Source: an uncultured Paracoccaceae bacterium (GTDB taxonomy: Bacteria > Pseudomonadota > Alphaproteobacteria > Rhodobacterales > Rhodobacteraceae). From it: a stretch of DNA of 10,260 nt. Below, in pieces: positions 1-9,598 of this stretch. The number at the start of each line of letters is the position of its first letter. Position 1 is the first letter of the stretch. Made by a program: the position numbers and the translations under genes. The notes under the pieces are model-generated. The model was not told where the DNA came from and ran no database searches. It saw only the letters and a list, made by a program, of their open reading frames with translations. The stretch spans positions 1 through 10,260 of the forward strand of contig CAJXHQ010000067.1 of NCBI GenBank assembly GCA_913054485.1, given 5' to 3'.

Positions 1-84
1 CAGCGCGACCGCGCATTCGGTGCGGAACACAAGCTCCAGCTGCGCAAGGGTCACCGAACCGGGGATCAGGGTAAGCACCGTCAA
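1..84 (-). CDS. hutH: Histidine ammonia-lyase, N-terminal fragment (runs off left edge)
   Basis: Only the first 28 codons are present. Read from a TTG at 84-82, they give a peptide beginning [17 protein letters not shown], which fits the N-terminus of histidine ammonia-lyase (the enzyme that deaminates L-histidine to urocanate). The TTG overlaps the hutI stop codon by three bases (TTGA arrangement), which suggests translational coupling; a GTG at 78-76 is the alternative start. Its position directly behind hutI supports hutH. The active-site MIO tripeptide (Ala-Ser-Gly) lies outside the window, so the identity rests on the short N-terminal match and on context. Confidence 0.72.
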
Positions 85-1292
85 TTTTTGCCTCCAAAGA
101 TACGGGCATGAAGCGGGTTGAAGCCAATGCGGTAGGCCAGCTCGGCCGGATGAGAGACATTCCAGACCGCAAGGTCCGCGCGCATCCCCGGCGCGATCAT
201 GCCGCAATCCTTCAATCCCAAGGCACGGGCGGCAGTAACGGTAACACCTTTCAGTGCCTCCTCAGGGGTCATGCGAAACAGGGTGCAGCCCATATTCATC
301 GCCAGCAGAAGCGAGGTCATCGGCGCAGAACCGGGATTGCAGTCAGTGGCCAGCGCCATCGGCACGTTATTTTGCCGCAATAGTTCAATAGGCGGCATCT
401 GAGTTTCGCGCAGGGTATAGTAGGCTCCGGGCAGGATGACGGCCGTGGTCCCGGCCCCCGCCATGGCTTTCACGCCGTCCTCATCGAGGTATTCAATGTG
501 ATCCGCCGACAGCGCGCCGTACCCCGCTGCCAGTTTTGCACCGCCAAGATTGGACAGCTGCTCGGCATGCAGTTTGACCGGCAAGCCAAGCCCGCGGGCG
601 GCCTCAAACAGCGGCACCAGCTGCTCCGGCAGAAAGGCAATCCCCTCGCAAAAGGCATCCACCGCATCCACCAGCCCTTCGGCATGCGCGTCTTTCAGCG
701 CGGGGAGGCAGACCTCTGCAATATAGGCATCGGCCCTGCCCTTGTATTCCGCAGGCACCGCATGGGCGCCAAGGAAACTTGTCACCACCTGTACCGGGCG
801 GTGCCGCGCCAAAGCGCGGGCGGCGCGCAGCATGTTCAGCTCGGTCTCGCGGTCCAGCCCGTAGCCGGATTTCACCTCGATTACGGTGACGCCCTCGGCC
901 AGCATCGCATCGACACGCGGCAGAGCCTCGGCGATCAGCGCTTCCACGCTGGCCGCGCGGGTCGCCTTGACCGTGGAGATGATGCCACCGCCGGCGCGGG
1001 CGACTTCCTCGTAACTGGCGCCGTTCAGACGCATCTCGAACTCCACAGCCCGGTGGCCGCCGTGCACCACATGCGTGTGGCAATCGATCAGCCCCGGCGT
1101 CACCAGACGTCCGCCAAGATCTGTACGCAGCAGATCGGCATAGTCCAGCGGCAGCTCCGCTTCCGGGCCCACCCAGGCAATCTGCCCGTCGCTGACCGCA
1201 ATTGCGGCCTCCCCGATCAGCCCGTAAGCCGCAGCGCCCCCAGCCATCGTAGCGGCGCTGAGACCGGTGAAAACCTGGCGATCTCCCTGCAT
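81..1292 (-). CDS. hutI: Imidazolonepropionase
   Basis: HutI hydrolyses 4-imidazolone-5-propionate to N-formimino-L-glutamate, the third step of cytoplasmic histidine breakdown. The 403-residue product has the usual length and the amidohydrolase TIM-barrel signature. Visible metal and substrate residues are the H72-x-H74 pair in [11 protein letters not shown]144 in KSGYGL, H177 in GAHAVP, H242-x-E244 in LHAEQ, H265 in SADHIEY and D317 in ATDCNPG. All are where the family needs them, so the enzyme should be active. The ATG at 1292 is supported by a purine-rich ribosome binding site, GGGAGGGAG, six bases upstream (complement of 1299-1307). It overlaps hutH downstream and diverges from hutF across an 82-bp gap with a probable HutC operator. 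Confidence 0.97.
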
Positions 1293-1344
1293 TCGAATCT
1301 CCCTCCCGGGTCAATTTCCTCTTTTCTGGTACAGTCCAATATGT

Positions 1345-1362
1345 ATTATGTCTATGCATAAT
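1345..1362. promoter_or_regulatory. Probable HutC operator in the hutI/hutF divergent promoter
   Basis: The 82-bp gap between hutI and hutF contains ATTATG-TCTATG-CATAAT, a perfect 6-bp inverted repeat with a 6-bp spacer. The core reads ATGCATAGACAT on the minus strand, which has the general form of operators bound by HutC-type GntR repressors. TATTAT at 1344-1349 and CATAAT on either strand of the palindrome resemble -10 boxes, so a bound repressor could block both directions. No good -35 match was seen for either gene. The link to HutC is inferred from hutC being two genes away; the known ligand of HutC is urocanate. Confidence 0.55.
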
Positions 1363-1374
1363 GCGAGTTAGATC

Positions 1375-2739
1375 ATGACAACACTCTTTGCGAACCGCGC
1401 CCTTCTGCCGTCGGGCTGGGTGGATAACCTCCGGCTGGAAATCGAAAACGGGCGCATCGCGACGCTGGTTCCGGACAGTCGGCCCAATGGTGCGGAAGCC
1501 TCGGTGGACACACTTCTGCCGGCGCTGTCCAATCTGCACAGCCACGCCTTTCAGCGCGCCATGGCCGGGATGAGTGAATACCGCGCCGCCGGGCGCGACA
1601 GTTTCTGGACCTGGCGCGAGCTGATGTACCGCTTCACCGCCCGCCTGACCCCGGATCAGATCGAGGCCATCGCGGCGCTGGTCTACATGGAGATGCAGGA
1701 GGCCGGATATGCCGCGGCCGGAGAGTTCCACTACCTGCATCACCAGCCCGGCGGTGCGCCTTATGCACGTCTGGCCGAAACCTCGGACCGGATCATGGCC
1801 GCAGCCTCTGAAACCGGCATCGGCCTGACCCATCTGCCTGTGCTCTACAGTTATGCAGGCGTGGGGGAGAAGCCGCTGGAGGCCGGGCAGGCCCGGTTCG
1901 GCAATGATGTCTCCCGCTTCTGCGCACTGGTGGATCAGACACAGGAAAGCCTCGCCAATTTGCCGGCGGACTGCCGCATTGGCATTGCGCCGCACTCCCT
2001 TCGTGCCACATCACCGCGTGATCTGGCCGAGGTGCTGGCCGCGCAAGGAACCGGCCCGATCCATATCCATATCGCCGAACAGCCCAAGGAAGTCGCCGAG
2101 GTGCAGGCCGGGCTGGGCGCGCGGCCAGTGGAATGGCTGCTGGCAAACGCGCCGGTGGATGCGGGCTGGTGCCTGATCCACGCCACCCACATGACGGATG
2201 CGGAAACCCGCGCCGTGGCCGCCAGCGGCGCGGTGGCCGGGCTCTGCCCGGTGACCGAAGCCAACCTGGGCGACGGGCCTTTCAACGGCCCGGCCTATCT
2301 GGACGCCAAGGGCATCTTTGGGGTTGGATCGGATTCCAATGTTCTGATCTCCCTCACCGAGGAGCTGCGCATGCTGGAATACTCCCAGCGGCTGCGCGAT
2401 CTGTCGCGCAATGTGCTGGTGGATGGGGCAGGCTCGGTGGGTGCACAGATCTACCTTGGCGCTGCCAAAGGCGGGGCGCAGGCGCTGGGGCGCGCGGCGG
2501 GGCGGATCGAGACCGGCCTGCTCGCCGATATCGTGGCGATCAACAGCCAGGACCCGGCGCTCTGCGCATTACCGCCGGACCAATTGCTGGACGGGCTGGT
2601 CTTTGCCGCAAAGGACCACGTTGTCACGGATGTCTGGTCTGCCGGGCGGCACCAGGTCCGCGGCGGGCGGCACGTGGCGCGTGATCGCATCCTGCAAAGA
2701 TACCGCAAGGCGCTCAGCAGCCTGCTGGACAGTCTCTGA
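1375..2739 (+). CDS. hutF: Formimidoylglutamate deiminase
   Basis: HutF deiminates N-formimino-L-glutamate to N-formyl-L-glutamate plus ammonia. This is the branch later completed by HutG deformylase, as opposed to direct formiminoglutamase hydrolysis. The 454-residue length is typical. The amidohydrolase zinc and catalytic residues are visible: H55-x-H57 in NLHSHAFQ, H207 in APHSLR, H232 and E235 in HIAEQ, H269 in IHATH and D320 in GSDSN. These positions are almost the same as those I recall for the Pseudomonas aeruginosa enzyme. The chosen ATG follows a weak purine stretch (GAG at 1365-1367), so translation initiation may be modest. It diverges from hutI and is followed 57 bp later by hutC in the same direction. 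Confidence 0.95.
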   Translation: MTTLFANRALLPSGWVDNLRLEIENGRIATLVPDSRPNGAEASVDTLLPALSNLHSHAFQRAMAGMSEYRAAGRDSFWTWRELMYRFTARLTPDQIEAIAALVYMEMQEAGYAAAGEFHYLHHQPGGAPYARLAETSDRIMAAASETGIGLTHLPVLYSYAGVGEKPLEAGQARFGNDVSRFCALVDQTQESLANLPADCRIGIAPHSLRATSPRDLAEVLAAQGTGPIHIHIAEQPKEVAEVQAGLGARPVEWLLANAPVDAGWCLIHATHMTDAETRAVAASGAVAGLCPVTEANLGDGPFNGPAYLDAKGIFGVGSDSNVLISLTEELRMLEYSQRLRDLSRNVLVDGAGSVGAQIYLGAAKGGAQALGRAAGRIETGLLADIVAINSQDPALCALPPDQLLDGLVFAAKDHVVTDVWSAGRHQVRGGRHVARDRILQRYRKALSSLLDSL

Positions 2740-2796
2740 GCGTGCAAACGGACCTATGGCTTTGCGCATTCCCCCCATTCCGGACATAAAGGCCGC

Positions 2797-3525
2797 ATGA
2801 CTGCTCAAGACGATGAAACCCCCGCGGCACACCGCAAGCCGGTCGGCTTCCAGGAGATCCGGGATGAGGTCATCGACCGCATTCAGACCCGCGTCTGGCC
2901 GCAGGGCGCCCTTTTGCCGACCGAGCTGGAGCTGGCGGCGGAGTTTGGCTGTGCCCGGGCGACGGTGAACCGCGCCCTGCGCGAGCTGGCGGAACAGGGT
3001 ATCGTAACCCGCAAGCGCAAGGGCGGAACCCGCGTTGCCTCCACCCCGGTGAAACAAGCCAAGCTGGCGATCACCGTGGTGCGCCAGACCATCGAGGAGA
3101 TGAACGCCGCCTACCGCTATGCGCTGGTCAGCCGCTCGCTTGTGGATTGCCCGCCCTGGCTGCAGGCCCGGACCGGCATCCCGGAGGGCGGCCAGGTGCT
3201 GCACCTGCAATGTATGCATCACGCCGACAACCGCCCCTTCCAGTTCGAAGAGCGCTGGATCAACGTGGCCGCTGTCCCGCATGTGGCCGGGGAAAACTTC
3301 CAGGACATTGGCCCGAACGAATGGCTTCTGGCAGAAGTGCCTTTTTCGGACGCTGAAATCTGCTTTTCCGCGGTGCCGGCAACCGGGACGCTGGCTGATT
3401 TTCTGGCAGTGCCCGCAGGCGCGCCGCTGTTTCAGATGGAGCGCACCACCTGGTTCCGCAAGAACCCGGTCACCTTTGTGCGGATGACCTTTCACCAGGG
3501 CTACCAGATGCGGACGGCTTACTAA
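2797..3525 (+). CDS. hutC: Histidine utilization repressor HutC (GntR family, HutC subfamily)
   Basis: This is a 242-residue transcription factor. Residues about 17-83 form a GntR winged helix-turn-helix (LLPTELELAAEFGCARATVN, then a GIVTRKRKGGTRV wing). Residues about 95-235 resemble a UTRA ligand-binding domain, ending in the typical FVRMTFHQGYQMR segment. HutC proteins repress hut genes and are released by urocanate; that role here is inferred from domain type and position behind hutF. The start at 2797 has an AAAGG ribosome binding site at 2787-2791. It is probably co-transcribed with hutF and ends convergently with the next regulator gene, leaving only 23 bp between the stops. Confidence 0.92.
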   Translation: MTAQDDETPAAHRKPVGFQEIRDEVIDRIQTRVWPQGALLPTELELAAEFGCARATVNRALRELAEQGIVTRKRKGGTRVASTPVKQAKLAITVVRQTIEEMNAAYRYALVSRSLVDCPPWLQARTGIPEGGQVLHLQCMHHADNRPFQFEERWINVAAVPHVAGENFQDIGPNEWLLAEVPFSDAEICFSAVPATGTLADFLAVPAGAPLFQMERTTWFRKNPVTFVRMTFHQGYQMRTAY

Positions 3526-3548: not shown

Positions 3549-4322
3549 TCAGACCGACAATTGCCGCCGCTTGGCCGCGCGCATCTCGCGGGCTTGCTGT
3601 TCCTGCCCGGTGCGGAAGGATTCCTCGACAAAATCCATGTGATTACGGGCCGCCGCCTCGGCCCGCTCCGGATCGCCTGCGATGATCGCCTCGGCAATCT
3701 CCTCGTGCTGGGCCAAAAGCTGGCGGCCCGACCCGTCCATGCTGCGCAGGAAACTGCGGTTGTAAAACACGCCCTGCCGCGTGAGATCGTAGATCGAGGC
3801 CATCATATGGATCAGCGTGGTGTTCTGGCTCGCATCCACCACCGCGGCATGCAGGCGGAAGTCAGCCTCCTGGCTGGCATCGGGATCATCCTCTTCCCAG
3901 GCTTTGCGCATTTCCGCGATGATGTCTTGCAAGCGCGCTTTGTCGGAGTCGGTGGCGCGCTGTGCCGCCAGGCGGCTGGCAAAGGCCTCCTGCTCACGCC
4001 GGTATTCCAGATAATCATAAAAGGCGCTGCCGTGGCGGGTGTAGAGCGCCAGAAGCGCAGGCGACATGGCGCGGCCGGTAAGCGGCGCGACGAAGGTTCC
4101 CTCGCCGTGGCGCACATTGACCAGCCCGCGTTCTTCCAGCGCCTGCAGCGCCTCGCGCAGCTTCGGACGCGACACACCCATCGCTTCGGCCAGTTCCCGT
4201 TCAGAGGGCAGCTTGCGCCCCTCTTTCAGGATGCCGTCGACGATCATCGACTCGATCTGTTCGATCACCGCATCAGCGATTGATTCGTGCCCGACAGGGT
4301 CAAAAAGGCTGGTTCCGGACAT
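3549..4322 (-). CDS. FadR-family GntR regulator, PdhR/LldR-like
   Basis: The 257-residue product has a GntR winged helix-turn-helix at residues 12-80 (GRKLPSERELAEAMGVSRPK, then RHGEGTFV in the wing) and an all-helical FCD domain from about 95 to 235. The FCD metal ligands are visible: D154 and H158 (DFRLH), H206 (QHEEI) and H228 (NHM). The overall sequence recalls E. coli PdhR more than LldR; both sense short organic acids (pyruvate, lactate). I chose the ATG at 4322 because AGGTGA (complement of 4328-4333) sits five bases upstream; an ATG at 4400 in the same frame would add 26 unlikely residues and lacks this support. It diverges from the TRAP/dld genes, which it most likely represses. The effector is inferred, not shown. 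Confidence 0.9.
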   Translation of the reverse strand: MSGTSLFDPVGHESIADAVIEQIESMIVDGILKEGRKLPSERELAEAMGVSRPKLREALQALEERGLVNVRHGEGTFVAPLTGRAMSPALLALYTRHGSAFYDYLEYRREQEAFASRLAAQRATDSDKARLQDIIAEMRKAWEEDDPDASQEADFRLHAAVVDASQNTTLIHMMASIYDLTRQGVFYNRSFLRSMDGSGRQLLAQHEEIAEAIIAGDPERAEAAARNHMDFVEESFRTGQEQQAREMRAAKRRQLSV

Positions 4323-4372
4323 GGCAGTCACCTGGATTGCGGCGCGCGGGCCAAAAAAGTGGTTGTTCGGAA

Positions 4373-4400
4373 ACTTTACCACTGACGGCGCAAACTTCAA
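4373..4400 (-). promoter_or_regulatory. Candidate promoter of the GntR regulator gene
   Basis: Read on the minus strand, TTGAAG (complement of 4395-4400) is followed after 16 bp by TAAAGT (complement of 4373-4378). Each hexamer matches the sigma-70-type consensus at four of six positions. The expected transcript would start near 4366 and give a leader of about 44 bases before the ATG at 4322. The -10 hexamer lies inside the inverted repeat AGTGGT-N14-ACCACT (4358-4383), which would allow autoregulation. This is prediction from spacing and consensus only. Confidence 0.4.
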
Positions 4401-4655: not shown

Positions 4656-5708
4656 ATGAAAAAGACCCTGACCTCGCTGGCCGTGGCCGCATCCCTGATC
4701 GCAGCGCCCGCCGCACAGGCAGCCGACAAGCTGCTGCTGAAAACCCCGATCGCCTTTTCGACCGCGCTGCCGGGCCTCGGCTCGCCGATCCCGCGGGTGG
4801 CCGAACAGCTGGACCTGATGTCCGGCGGCACCCTGAAAATGAAAGTCTACGAGCCCGGCAAACTGGTCCCGCCGTTTGAGATCCTGGATGCGGTCTCCTC
4901 GGGCAAGATCAACTCGGGCTACACCACCGCCGGCTACTGGGCGGGCAAGATCCCGGCAGCACCGCTGTTTTCGGCCGTGCCCTTTGGCCCCGAAGCCGGC
5001 GAATACATGGCCTGGCTGTATTACGGCAACGGCGTGAGCCTCTATCAGGAGATGTACGACCAGGCCGGCTATAACGTGAAGGTCATTCCCTGCGCCGTCA
5101 TCGCACCGGAAACCTCCGGCTGGTTCGCCAAAGAGATCAACAGCCCCGACGATCTGGACGGGTTGAAAATGCGCTTCTTCGGCCTTGGCGGCAAGGTGAT
5201 GCAGAAGCTGGGCGTTGCCACCTCGCTGCTGCCCGGCGGCGAGATCTTCCCGGCGCTGGAAAAAGGCGCGATCGATGCGACCGAATTCTCCATGCCCGCC
5301 ATCGACGCCCGCCTCGGCTTCCACAAGCTGGTGAAGTTCAACTACTTCCCCGGCTGGCACCAGCAGGCCACCGTGTTTGAGATGCTGATCAACAAGGACG
5401 TCTGGAACGGCGCCTCCGAGCAGCACCGCGCCATCATCGAGAACGCCTGCAAGGCCTCCATGGCGGACAGCTTTGCCGAAGGCGAAGCGATCCAGCACGA
5501 CGCGCTGATCGACAATGTTGAAAACAATGGCGTGCAGATCAAACAGTGGGACGACGCCATGCTCGACGTGTTCCGCGCCACCTGGGAAGAGGTTGCCGCG
5601 GAAGAGGCCACCAACGACCTGTTCTTCGCCAAGGTGCTGATGGATATGGATGATTTCCGGGCCGGCTATTCCGTCTGGAAAGAAAACGCTTTCCTCCCGC
5701 GCAAGTAA
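4656..5708 (+). CDS. TRAP transporter solute-binding protein (DctP family, TakP-like)
   Basis: This is the periplasmic receptor of a sodium-driven tripartite (TRAP) importer, 350 residues. Residues 1-22 form a clear signal peptide (MKK, hydrophobic stretch, APAAQA cleavage motif). The mature part has DctP-family features: FSTALPGLGSPIP near the start, AVIAPETSGWFAKEI, then LKMRFFGLGGKV with R173, the Arg expected to hold the substrate carboxylate, and PALEKGAIDATEFSMPA. It recalls the subgroup containing Rhodobacter TakP (2-keto acids) and the Thermus lactate-binding protein. The ATG at 4656 follows a strong GGAGGAG (4644-4650); an in-frame GTG at 4614 is less likely because it would spoil the signal peptide. 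With dld downstream, lactate or a related 2-hydroxy/2-keto acid is the most likely cargo, but mannitol/chloroaromatic-type annotations would also fit this subfamily. Confidence 0.92.
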   Translation: MKKTLTSLAVAASLIAAPAAQAADKLLLKTPIAFSTALPGLGSPIPRVAEQLDLMSGGTLKMKVYEPGKLVPPFEILDAVSSGKINSGYTTAGYWAGKIPAAPLFSAVPFGPEAGEYMAWLYYGNGVSLYQEMYDQAGYNVKVIPCAVIAPETSGWFAKEINSPDDLDGLKMRFFGLGGKVMQKLGVATSLLPGGEIFPALEKGAIDATEFSMPAIDARLGFHKLVKFNYFPGWHQQATVFEMLINKDVWNGASEQHRAIIENACKASMADSFAEGEAIQHDALIDNVENNGVQIKQWDDAMLDVFRATWEEVAAEEATNDLFFAKVLMDMDDFRAGYSVWKENAFLPRK

Positions 5709-5835: not shown

Positions 5836-7902
5836 ATGGCCGAGAAGCTGCAGGCGCAGACCGACCCGATCGAACTCTACGAAACCATCCTGGAACATGA
5901 CGACCGCGACCGGCAGGCCGTTGCCCTGCTGCTTGACAAGGGGGTGAAGGGGGCCGGCAATATCGTGATGTGGGCCAACCTGCTGCTGGTCCTCGCCATC
6001 GTCACCCAGGTTGCCATGCGCTACCTGTTCAACCAGAACTACCCCAAGCTGGACGAGGTGCAGTGGCATTTCTACGGGCTGGTCACGATGATCGGCATCT
6101 CTTATGCGCTGGTCACCGACAGCCACGTGCGTGTCGACCTCCTGCACATGCAGCTCTCCCGCCGCGCACAGCGGGTGATCGAGGTGATCGGCATCCTCGC
6201 CTTGCTGGTGCCCTTCATCTACCTGATGATCGATCAGGGCTATGACTATTTCTACGAAAGCTGGCGGGTGAATGAACGCTCCAGCAGCCCCACCGGCCTG
6301 CCGGCCCGCTGGGTGCTGAAGGCGGTGATCCCGCTGAGCTTCATCCTGCTGGCGCTGGCCGCCCTGGCGCGTCTGGTCCACGACGGCCACGCACTGCTGA
6401 CCGGCCCCGCCGAAGAACGCGAGGGCAAGGGCATCCGGCTGGTGATCTGGGCTCTCATTGCTTTTGCAGTCGTCGCCACCGCGCTGACTTTCCTGGTGGA
6501 AACAACCGAGGAAAAGCTGGTCATCGCCATGTTCCTCACCTTCATCGCGCTCTTGTTCACCGGCTTCCCGGTGGCCTGGACACTGGCCGGCGTCGGCGTC
6601 GCTTACTGCGGTATCGCCTTCCTGTTCGACAATGGCATGATGAATTGGACCGGCCTGGAAGAGACCCTGACCGGGCTCGACTATCTGACCCTTGGAGCTG
6701 TCGTGAACCGGGTCTATGCCACCATGTCCAATGCTGTGCTGGTGGCGCTGCCGATGTTCATCTTCATGGGGCTGATGCTGGATGAGTCCGGCGTGGCAGA
6801 GCGGCTGATGACCTCAATGCAGCGTCTGTTCGGCACCGTGCGCGGCGGGCTGGCGATTACTGTGACAATGATCGGCATCATCCTTGCCGCCTCCACCGGC
6901 ATCATCGGCGCCTCCGTTGTGTTGCTGGGCGTGCTGTCCCTGCCTTCGATGATGGAGCAGAAGTATTCGCCCTCGCTGGCGGCCGGTGTGGTCTCGGCCT
7001 CGGGCACGCTGGGCATCCTGATCCCGCCCTCCATCATGCTGGTGATCATGGCCGACCAGATGGCGCTGAGTGTCGGCGACCTGTTCATGGCCGCGGTCTT
7101 CCCCGGCGTGATTATCGGCGCGCTTTACCTCACCTATATCTTCGTGATCGCGCTGATCAAACGCGACGTGGCCCCGGTGCCGGAAGGTGCGAAACGTCCC
7201 GACTGGGCGGCCGTGAAGGACGTTCTGATCGCGGTTCTACCGACTCTGGGCCTGATTCTGGCCGTGTTAGGGTCTATTTTTGCAGGACTCACCACGCCGA
7301 CCGAAGCCTCAGGCGTGGGCGCATTGGGGGCCACCGTTTTGGCGCTTGGCTACCGCAAGCTGACGCTGGCCAAGCTGGTCAACGTGCTGAAGGCGACCTT
7401 CAACACCACCGCCTATATCTTTGCGATCTTCCTAGGCGCGACCGTCTTCTCCTACGTGCTGCGCGAACTGGGCGGTGACGCGCTGATCGAGGACATGATC
7501 CACGGCACCGGTTTTGGCCCGCAGGGCACCGTGCTGGTGATCCTGTTCATCGTCTTCCTGCTGGGCTTTGTGCTCGACTAGATCGAGATCACCCTGATCG
7601 TGCTGCCGCTGATGCGCCCGATCGTGAACGGGCTGGGACTGGATATTCCCGGTTTCGGCGCGATGGATGAACCGGCGCTGGTCTGGTTTGTGATCCTGGT
7701 GGCGGTGACCCTGCAAACCTCCTTCCTGACGCCACCGGTGGGCTTTGCGCTCTTCTACCTGAAAGGGGTCTGCCCGCCGGAAATCCGCCTGACGGACATC
7801 TACAAGGGCATCATCCCCTTCGTGATCCTGCAGCTCACCGGATTGGCATTTGTCTTCCTGTGGCCTGCTCTGGCAACATGGCTGCCGTCGGTCGCCTACT
7901 GA
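5836..7902 (+). pseudogene. Fused TRAP transporter permease (DctQ-DctM), interrupted by an in-frame TAG
   Basis: Read through the TAG at 7579-7581, this would be a 688-residue membrane protein. Residues about 40-190 are the small DctQ-like subunit (FNQNYPKLDEVQWHFYGLVT, four membrane segments). Residues about 205-680 are the large DctM-like subunit, with signatures SGTLGILIPPSI (389-400) and TPTEASGVGA (487-496), and LTPPVGFALFYL near the C-terminus. As written, translation ends after residue 581, in FLLGFVLD-stop-IEITLIV. Family members have Trp in this DWIEI motif, so a TGG to TAG change is the simplest explanation. The frame stays open for 106 more codons to TGA at 7900-7902, 13 bp before dld. 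The truncated product lacks the last membrane segments and the second signature, so it is probably inactive unless the stop is read through. The ATG at 5836 follows GAGGAGGAG (5824-5832). Alternatives are a sequencing error or a strain-specific mutation. Confidence 0.88.
7579..7581 (+). other. In-frame amber codon at a conserved Trp position of the TRAP permease
   Basis: The codon order GTG CTC GAC TAG ATC GAG ATC replaces the expected Val-Leu-Asp-Trp-Ile-Glu-Ile. No frameshift is involved: both sides are in the same frame and both match the family. A GTG at 7600 and an ATG at 7612 could in theory restart translation, but neither has a convincing ribosome binding site. Confidence 0.9.
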
Positions 7903-7915
7903 GGGGGAGAGGGCA

Positions 7916-9598
7916 ATGGATGATGCAGCGCTGATCAAACGGCTGAAAGCCATCTGCGGGCGGCGGCACGTGCTGACCACCGCCCGCGCCACCCAGCGGT
8001 TCCGCAAAGGGTTCAGATCCGGCGAAGGCGAGGCGCTGGCCGTTGTCCAGCCCGCAACCCTGCTGGAGCAGTGGAAGGTGCTGGAGGCCTGCGTCGAAGC
8101 GGATAAGATCGTCATCATGCAGGCCGCCAACACCGGCCTGACCGAAGGCTCGACCCCAAAGGGCAGCTATGACCGCGATGTGGTTCTGATCAACACGCGG
8201 CGGATGGATCAGATCCAGCTCTTGGACGGCGGCAAACAGGTCATCAGCTTTCCCGGCTCGACCCTGTTCAAACTGGAGAAAATGCTGGACCCGCTCGGCC
8301 GTCAGCCGCATTCGGTGATCGGCTCGTCTTGCATTGGAGCCTCCATCGTTGGCGGGGTCTGCAACAACTCCGGCGGCTCGCTGGTGGAGCGCGGGCCGTC
8401 TTATACCGAACTGTCGCTCTATGCCCGCATCACCAAAGAAGGCCAGCTGGAGCTGGTCAATCACCTTGGCATCAATCTCGGCAGCACGCCGGAAGAGGTG
8501 CTGTCCCGCCTGCAAAACGGAGAATATGCGGACGGGGACATAGAGACCGGCAACCGCAAGGCGTCGGACACGGATTACGCCCGCCGCGTACGCGATATCG
8601 AGGCCCCCACCCCTGCCCGTTTCAACGCCGACACCTCCCGCCTGTACGAGGCCGCAGGCTGCGCCGGCAAACTGGCGGTTTTTGCAGTACGGCTGGACAG
8701 CTATCCGAAGAACACCGCCGAGAAGACGTTTTATATCGGCAGCCCCAGCACCGGGGCGCTGACCGATCTGCGGCGGCGGATCCTGGGGGAATTCACCACG
8801 CTGCCGGTCAGCGCCGAATACATGCACGCGGATGTCTTTGACCTCTCGGACCGCTACGGCAAGGACACGATGGTAATGATCGACAAGCTGGGCACCGACC
8901 GGCTGCCGATGTTCTTTGCCATGAAGGGCGCGATTGACGCCCGGCTGACAGCCATTCCCGGGCTTGGCAATGTCACCGACCGCTTCATGCAAGGCGCATC
9001 GCGCCTCTGGCCCGACATCCTGCCCGCCCGGATGCGCGATTTCCGCGCTGCCTACCCGCATCACCTGATCCTGAAGATGCGCGACGGCGGCATCGACGAG
9101 GCCCGCGCCCTGCTGGAAGAAATGGCCGCCGGCGGCAAGCTGGCCTTCTTCGAATGCGATGCGCGCGAAGCGAAGATGGCCGGGCTGCACCGCTTTGCCG
9201 CCGCCGGGGCCGCGGTGCGCTACATGGCGGTGCACAAGTCGGAAGTAGAGGAGATCATCGCGCTGGATATCGCCCTGCGCCGCAACGACCGCGACTGGTT
9301 CGAGGAGCTGCCGGCCGAAATCGCGGATCAGCTGGTCAGCAGGCTCTATTACGGGCATTTCATGTGCCACGTGCTGCACCAGGATTACATCGTGAAGAAA
9401 GGCGCCGACCCCAAGGCGCTGAAGGCGGCAATGCTGGAGATCCTGGACAAGCGCGGCGCGGAATACCCGGCCGAGCACAATGTCGGGCATCTTTATCCCG
9501 CAAAACAAGGCCTGGCAGAGTTTTACAAGTCGGCGAACCCCACCAACAGTATGAACCCCGGCATCGGCAAAATGTCCCGCAAGAAGAACTACGCCTGA
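7916..9598 (+). CDS. dld: Quinone-dependent D-lactate dehydrogenase
   Basis: Dld is an FAD-containing peripheral inner-membrane enzyme that oxidises D-lactate to pyruvate and passes electrons to the quinone pool. The 560-residue product is close to the E. coli enzyme in length and matches it, as recalled, along nearly its whole length: YRKGFRSG-like RFRKGFRSGEG (28-38), MQAANTGLTEGSTP (68-81), the FAD-domain stretch SSCIGASIVGGVCNNSGGS (137-155), LHRFAAAGAAVRY (424-436), ALRRND (453-458), YYGHFMC (478-484) and PTNSMNPGIGK at the C-terminus. Residues about 40-260 form the FAD domain and about 275-560 the membrane-binding Dld domain. The ATG at 7916 follows GAGGGGGAGAGGG (7901-7913); an ATG at 7850 would extend back into the permease end. 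It is the last gene of the TRAP operon. Confidence 0.96.
   Translation: MDDAALIKRLKAICGRRHVLTTARATQRFRKGFRSGEGEALAVVQPATLLEQWKVLEACVEADKIVIMQAANTGLTEGSTPKGSYDRDVVLINTRRMDQIQLLDGGKQVISFPGSTLFKLEKMLDPLGRQPHSVIGSSCIGASIVGGVCNNSGGSLVERGPSYTELSLYARITKEGQLELVNHLGINLGSTPEEVLSRLQNGEYADGDIETGNRKASDTDYARRVRDIEAPTPARFNADTSRLYEAAGCAGKLAVFAVRLDSYPKNTAEKTFYIGSPSTGALTDLRRRILGEFTTLPVSAEYMHADVFDLSDRYGKDTMVMIDKLGTDRLPMFFAMKGAIDARLTAIPGLGNVTDRFMQGASRLWPDILPARMRDFRAAYPHHLILKMRDGGIDEARALLEEMAAGGKLAFFECDAREAKMAGLHRFAAAGAAVRYMAVHKSEVEEIIALDIALRRNDRDWFEELPAEIADQLVSRLYYGHFMCHVLHQDYIVKKGADPKALKAAMLEILDKRGAEYPAEHNVGHLYPAKQGLAEFYKSANPTNSMNPGIGKMSRKKNYA

Follow-up and report, generated by a model that had tools for sequence, protein, structure and literature searches.

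The window, the whole 10,260-base stretch of DNA analysed here and the entire contig C67 of the draft genome of a marine bacterium, carries a gene for a fused TRAP permease, dctQM, whose frame is interrupted by an in-frame TAG at codon 582. At the level of the draft's letters this stop is genuine, and it is one among eight similar stops that we accepted in 644 kb. We consider a base error in the draft to be its most likely cause, with a slightly better than even chance of being correct; taken more broadly, either error or a recent mutation of an ordinary kind is most likely, and not new biology.

The interrupted permease gene

Pfam families PF04290 (DctQ) and PF06808 (DctM) both match within a single frame at 5836-7902, in which 581 codons precede the TAG (7579-7581), 106 follow it, and a TGA at 7900-7902 closes the gene. 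The TAG is the sole interruption of this frame. As written, the DctM part of the product is incomplete: the TAG cuts the profile match off at position 328 of 413, whereupon a separate open reading frame beginning with GTG at 7600 picks the profile up again at 337 and carries it to 412. The letters and the Pfam matches on both sides bear out the initial annotation, which described a TAG at codon 582 of an otherwise intact DctQM frame. Coordinates of the gene, of its neighbours and of the other accepted stops are given in Table 1.

The closest known systems are fused QM TRAP permeases (TIGR00786/PF06808 with PF04290; structures solved for 7qha/8b01, 8y4w, 8thi, 7qe5 and 9pym). The full-length dctQM frame aligns to SiaT chain 8thi_A over residues 18-686 and, when read through, passes the TIGR00786 cut-off (274.2 versus 268.45). 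It differs in ending at residue 581 as written, and the part upstream of the stop alone scores 210.5, below that cut-off. As in fused-QM TRAP systems, a partner binding protein (PF03480) is encoded directly upstream. The neighbouring dld, a gene for a membrane D-lactate dehydrogenase, suggests that the substrate is a lactate-type acid. The divergent GntR regulator has an opposite-strand match of >50% identity in 75 of 80 relatives' loci. Beside the TRAP operon, at window positions 81-3525, lie the histidine-use genes hutI (-), hutF (+) and hutC (+); the relatives' 80 loci, none of which extends further than 5 kb from dctQM, gave no match to hutF.

Table 1. Features of the window and the other lone in-frame stops accepted in the draft (locus handles, with the draft contig in brackets)
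Feature	Position	Strand	Stop	Evidence
FCD-type GntR regulator, divergent from dctP	3549..4400	-		PF07729 + PF00392
dctP, TRAP substrate-binding protein, intact	4656..5708	+		PF03480 (frame from 4659); adjoins dctQM in 78/80 loci
dctQM, open part before stop, 581 codons	5836..7578	+		Pfam DctQ 1-128/132, DctM 1-328/413
dctQM, in-frame stop at codon 582	7579..7581	+	TAG	Letters; Trp/TGG in 80/80 orthologous loci (best 80 of 97)
dctQM, rest, 106 codons and natural TGA	7582..7902	+		DctM 337-412/413 from ORF at 7600; dN 0.015, dS 0.44 versus G001
dld, membrane D-lactate dehydrogenase, intact	7916..9598	+		PF09330; NCBIfam PRK11183, 905.5 bits; directly 3' of dctQM in 47/80 loci
panC, pantoate-beta-alanine ligase	L145:3236 (G000:C2)		TAA, codon 72	PF02569 contiguous in both halves; relatives' residue variable
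regB-like histidine kinase	L239:6102 (G000:C36)		TAG, codon 278	HisKA before, HATPase after; G001 ortholog unbroken, Gln
Second TRAP DctM	L150:7712 (G000:C7)		TAA	Closest ortholog, G001 L046 (94%), has Glu
Aminotransferase class III, two sites	L238:11991 and 11529 (G000:C35)		TAG, TAA	Unbroken in 7/7 aligned relatives; Gln at first site, Glu at second
thiE	L157:13490 (G000:C14)		TAG	Gln in 2/3 relatives
DAO/GCV_T oxidoreductase	L155:14007 (G000:C12)		TAA	Relatives' residue variable

Codon 582 in relatives and second records

We compared the codon across orthologous loci kept from named genomes, taking the best 80 of 97 relatives found in genome_contigs. Codon 582 is TGG in all 80, as it is in the nearest relative (G001; 86% DNA identity), and none of the 80 has an internal stop. 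Across 29 wider TRAP loci covering the codon, the window's own copies excluded, the residue is Trp in 16, Phe in 8, Thr in 2, and Tyr, Ser and Pro in one each, with no stops. Trp at 582 is thus fixed among orthologs and not across the TRAP family, and the earlier assertion that a family motif needs Trp at this position holds for the former but not for the latter.

A protein search with residues 1-581 returned no 581-residue protein among the 120 best matches listed. The closest foreign protein (P0002; 97% identity) has Trp at 582 and is identical to the window over residues 583-688. A search for a C-terminal piece of the organism's own permease carrying Trp gave no 100% identical match among the 120 listed, although with clustering at 90% such a piece may stay hidden. 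A search of plasmids for a possible copy with the same stop gave three records in all, from Leisingera sp. S132 (86.1% along the full query), Aestuarium zhoushanense (78.0% over 94%) and Alloyangia pacifica (over 7%). A 722-base contig named Escherichia coli (P0123) also holds a 92% identical piece of the permease; this record is probably mislabelled or contaminated.

We found no sign of relaxed selection beyond the lesion. With G001 as the reference, dN and dS are 0.015 and 0.44 over the 106 codons that follow the stop, and 0.038 and 0.67 over the 581 codons that precede it. The conservation of the codons after the TAG that had been noted from the letters is thereby upheld, by these values and by the absence of any difference from P0002 in that part. 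Since selection is not relaxed 3' of the stop, any real mutation must be very recent.

One match in the protein search, P0049 (517 residues, from a 9,743-base contig), agrees with the window at every position up to residue 512, is frameshifted thereafter and ends before codon 582. A single missing base at 7370-7373, upstream of the TAG, explains the frameshift. P0049, which represents two member sequences, one of them shown, is apparently a second record of the same organism; with a frameshift in one and the TAG in the other, the two records disagree inside dctQM. The truncated RegB of the draft also recurs, as P0242, on two contig records, the longest of 12,187 bases, as is the draft's own contig C36. 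Hence, the regB stop is reproduced between records, perhaps from the same reads, and dctQM differs between them.

Lone stops across the draft

The draft comprises 692 contigs, up to 29.8 kb, and 3.84 Mb, with a completeness of 75.02% and contamination of 1.28%. We sampled up to 20 kb from each of contigs C1-C40 and added the window, 643,703 bases together, and used as control 1.6 Mb (1,600,000 bases) of G001, with its rpoC locus added for ortholog comparison. A codon-usage scan for stops with a coding-like frame on either side picked out 29 draft sites, as compared with 22 in the 1.6 Mb of G001. Eight of the G001 sites have ATG as the second codon after the stop and were read as gene boundaries; the other 14 have no Pfam family on either side (0/14). 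Ten of the 29 draft sites were examined with Pfam, and eight were accepted. The two rejected were a TctB/TctA gene boundary (L156) and a stretch flanked by no family (L237). Of the other 19 sites in the draft, 6 have ATG as the second codon; all 19 were judged by eye alone to be boundaries or antisense, and the eight accepted sites were picked partly by eye. In five of them, the same Pfam family lies on both sides, its profile breaking off and resuming at 68|70 in panC, 65|68 in thiE, 252|264 in the second DctM, 108|117 in DAO and 328|337 in dctQM.

Eight stops in seven genes in 644 kb is a draft-wide excess of lone disruptive substitutions: in the 1.6 Mb of G001 we accepted none by codon-usage scan and one by ortholog comparison. 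Under an equal per-base rate, the chance that all eight would fall in the draft is 4.6e-5, and the chance of at least 8 of 9 when the G001 stop is included is 3.1e-4. The eight comprise four TAG, four TAA and no TGA. Single substitutions under the codon usage of the draft would yield TGA for 18.5-20.2% of stops, and the chance of 0/8 TGA is 0.17-0.19. Relatives do not share one residue at these sites, as reassignment or suppression would call for; they have Trp at one, Gln at three, Glu at two and variable residues at two.

Ortholog comparison could evaluate 127 of 872 G001 frames in the draft and gave four nonsense calls: dctQM, panC, regB and L231. We judged the stretch at L231, from which the sole multi-frame call came as well, to be non-coding and dropped it. 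Clear frameshifts were absent from the 127 comparisons, versus three accepted stops. In the reverse direction, 141 of 406 draft frames were evaluable in G001, with six nonsense calls in four frames and three multi-frame calls. Accepted stops thus number 3/127 in the draft versus 1/141 in G001. The latter is a lone in-frame TGA that interrupts a fasciclin domain whose frame is conserved before and after it (L174, about 11199-11555, G001:C9), and it tells against a clean contrast between draft and control.

An earlier, smaller comparison evaluated 99 G001 genes in the draft (7 with nonsense calls, 2 frameshift-like) and, as reverse control, 81 draft genes in G001, of which 12 had nonsense calls and 2 were frameshift-like. 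Candidates at L147, L230 (two), L231 and L145:18079 were dropped on reading as antisense, start-site or non-coding cases (L230 from stop position only). Ten frames flagged in this reverse control or in the larger comparison were checked with Pfam, yielding one lone G001 stop, two apparent stop losses in the draft, five frames whose stop or frame change in G001 is upstream of the domain and two frames without a family; the flagged frames outside this check (L230, two; the regB frame in L239; two window frames) were judged by stop position or antisense placement. In panB (L145:1875-3023) the frame changes before the domain, and the regB frame in L239 differs upstream of the likely start. Two draft frames run on past the end of their G001 counterparts: bamA (Omp85; L235:3250-5769, G000:C32) extends beyond the natural end in G001, and PhyH (L154:10132-12189, G000:C11) overruns the G001 stops into KduI, for which G001 uses a different frame. 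In each case the draft seems to have lost a stop, although natural variation may also account for it.

Applied to the 80 loci around the operon (0.91 Mb), the same codon-usage scan produced 17 sites, each of which we took on visual inspection for a boundary or antisense. A wider check of the other broken genes found a stop before the start codon in a relative of thiE and one at the extreme end in a relative of panC. Within the window, singletons at near-invariant columns number none in dctP, one in dctQM (the stop), two in dld and none in gntR; the two other than the stop are too few to decide on a raised error rate. We dropped rpoC as a yardstick for base errors, as the draft has only a contig-end piece of it.

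In the draft, RF1 is present and unbroken, and TAG ends 44/320 long frames (123/770 in G001), TAG and TAA together 105/320 (308/770 in G001), such that TAG has not been retired as a terminator. We recovered 13 tRNA genes from the incomplete draft, none with anticodon CTA or TTA. SSU rRNA, also tried as a yardstick, was not matched in the draft, by a search that failed on 5 of its 14 control genomes too.

Possible causes of the stop and its predicted consequence

That lone stops of two kinds are over-represented throughout the draft speaks for error or general decay rather than for a cause peculiar to dctQM, and substitutions without a clear frameshift in 127 comparisons fit substitution noise better than decay. 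On our reading, the TAG is a lone single-base nonsense change in an otherwise normal, conserved dctQM, seen in this draft only and belonging to a draft-wide scatter of lone substitutions, and base error is likelier as its cause than fixed mutation. The fragmentation and incompleteness of the draft, its 13 tRNAs, its lack of an SSU rRNA match (in a search that missed some controls), the disagreement of P0049 with the window and the two apparent stop losses (bamA and PhyH) fit a base error, as does the fact that every accepted stop is a lone substitution in a frame conserved on both sides. However, the implied rate of about 6e-4 per base, an estimate from eight stops, a 2.5% nonsense share and a coding length assumed to be 560 kb, seems high given that contigs reach 29.8 kb; moreover, the truncated RegB occurs on two contig records, and G001, the better genome, has a lone stop of its own. 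These last two observations also speak for a real and very recent nonsense mutation, a null allele of the strain or population and perhaps part of a general early loss of genes, which we regard as a serious contender with somewhat less than an even chance. Under that explanation DctP and Dld would remain while the permease ended at residue 581. It accords with both records of dctQM being broken, differently, and with the assignable changes among the stops running from G:C to A:T, like ordinary mutation. Lone stops also fall in the biosynthetic genes panC and thiE, and loss of genes of this type is common in host-associated bacteria. Against it, decaying bacterial genomes usually show many frameshifts, of which we found no clear case; the codons after the stop have had no relaxation of selection, requiring great youth; and the draft is fragmented and incomplete. 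Ordinary nonsense mutations, pseudogenes and base errors in drafts are alike in consisting of one substitution in a conserved frame in one genome only, and nothing distinguishes the present stop from them except the raised number in the draft.

Readthrough or suppression, by an amber or ochre suppressor tRNA or a leaky context, would yield full-length permease. An ochre suppressor could read all eight stops, the codons after the TAG are conserved, and the recovered tRNA set is small; yet the lack of TGA is unremarkable under random single substitutions, relatives' residues differ between sites, TAG and TAA still end about a third of the long frames, RF1 is unbroken, and no recovered tRNA has a suitable anticodon. 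We therefore consider readthrough very improbable, and slightly more so its genome-wide form, in which a suppressor tolerating TAA and TAG, and not TGA, would have let lone UAR stops accumulate with the proteins still made. Codon reassignment was rejected, as TAG and TAA are ordinary terminators here, the residues differ and RF1 is unbroken. Hence, of the three causes proposed in the initial annotation, recent mutation and sequence error survive and readthrough is left with no positive support. The converse proposal, that the permease ends naturally at 581 with a separate downstream gene, is contradicted by the 80 of 80 orthologs (best 80 of 97) that continue through the codon, and we rejected it. 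A 100-codon frame with a GTG start at 7600 does exist, and its product might complete the permease, but no protein of 581 residues is among the 120 best matches listed, and the alignment places the break within the transport domain, in its HPout region; such a split is scarcely credible.

To gauge what the stop would mean for transport, we aligned the read-through protein with SiaM (chain 7qha_B). With equivalences read from alignment offsets, the SiaM counterpart of codon 582 is residue 330, and that of Gly577 is G325. The SiaM study (PMC9971032) locates the Na2 site at G325, G366, T369 and M372, where the HPout loop faces the TM11a-b loop, and reports that T369A leaves about 3% of transport. 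The stop lies five residues past the equivalent of G325, and the product as written is, in contrast to SiaM, without the equivalents of G366, T369 and M372, which by the alignment are Ser629, Thr632 and Val635, and it also lacks TM11, TM12 and some of the HPout hairpin. Provided that the stop is real, removal of both helices and of most of the Na2 site should abolish transport; the prediction made from the letters, that import by this route would be lost, is thus supported by mapping onto a solved structure.

The wider lesson is one of caution: where a draft is fragmented, the number of stops that it carries overall should be considered before one stop is taken as evidence of lost function. 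Should the stop be a base error, the gene of the organism is probably an intact fused TRAP permease that works with its binding protein and D-lactate dehydrogenase. If instead it is real, it would be of modest interest, in that a lineage would have lost its lactate-type TRAP importer naturally and not long ago while keeping the binding protein and the D-lactate dehydrogenase.
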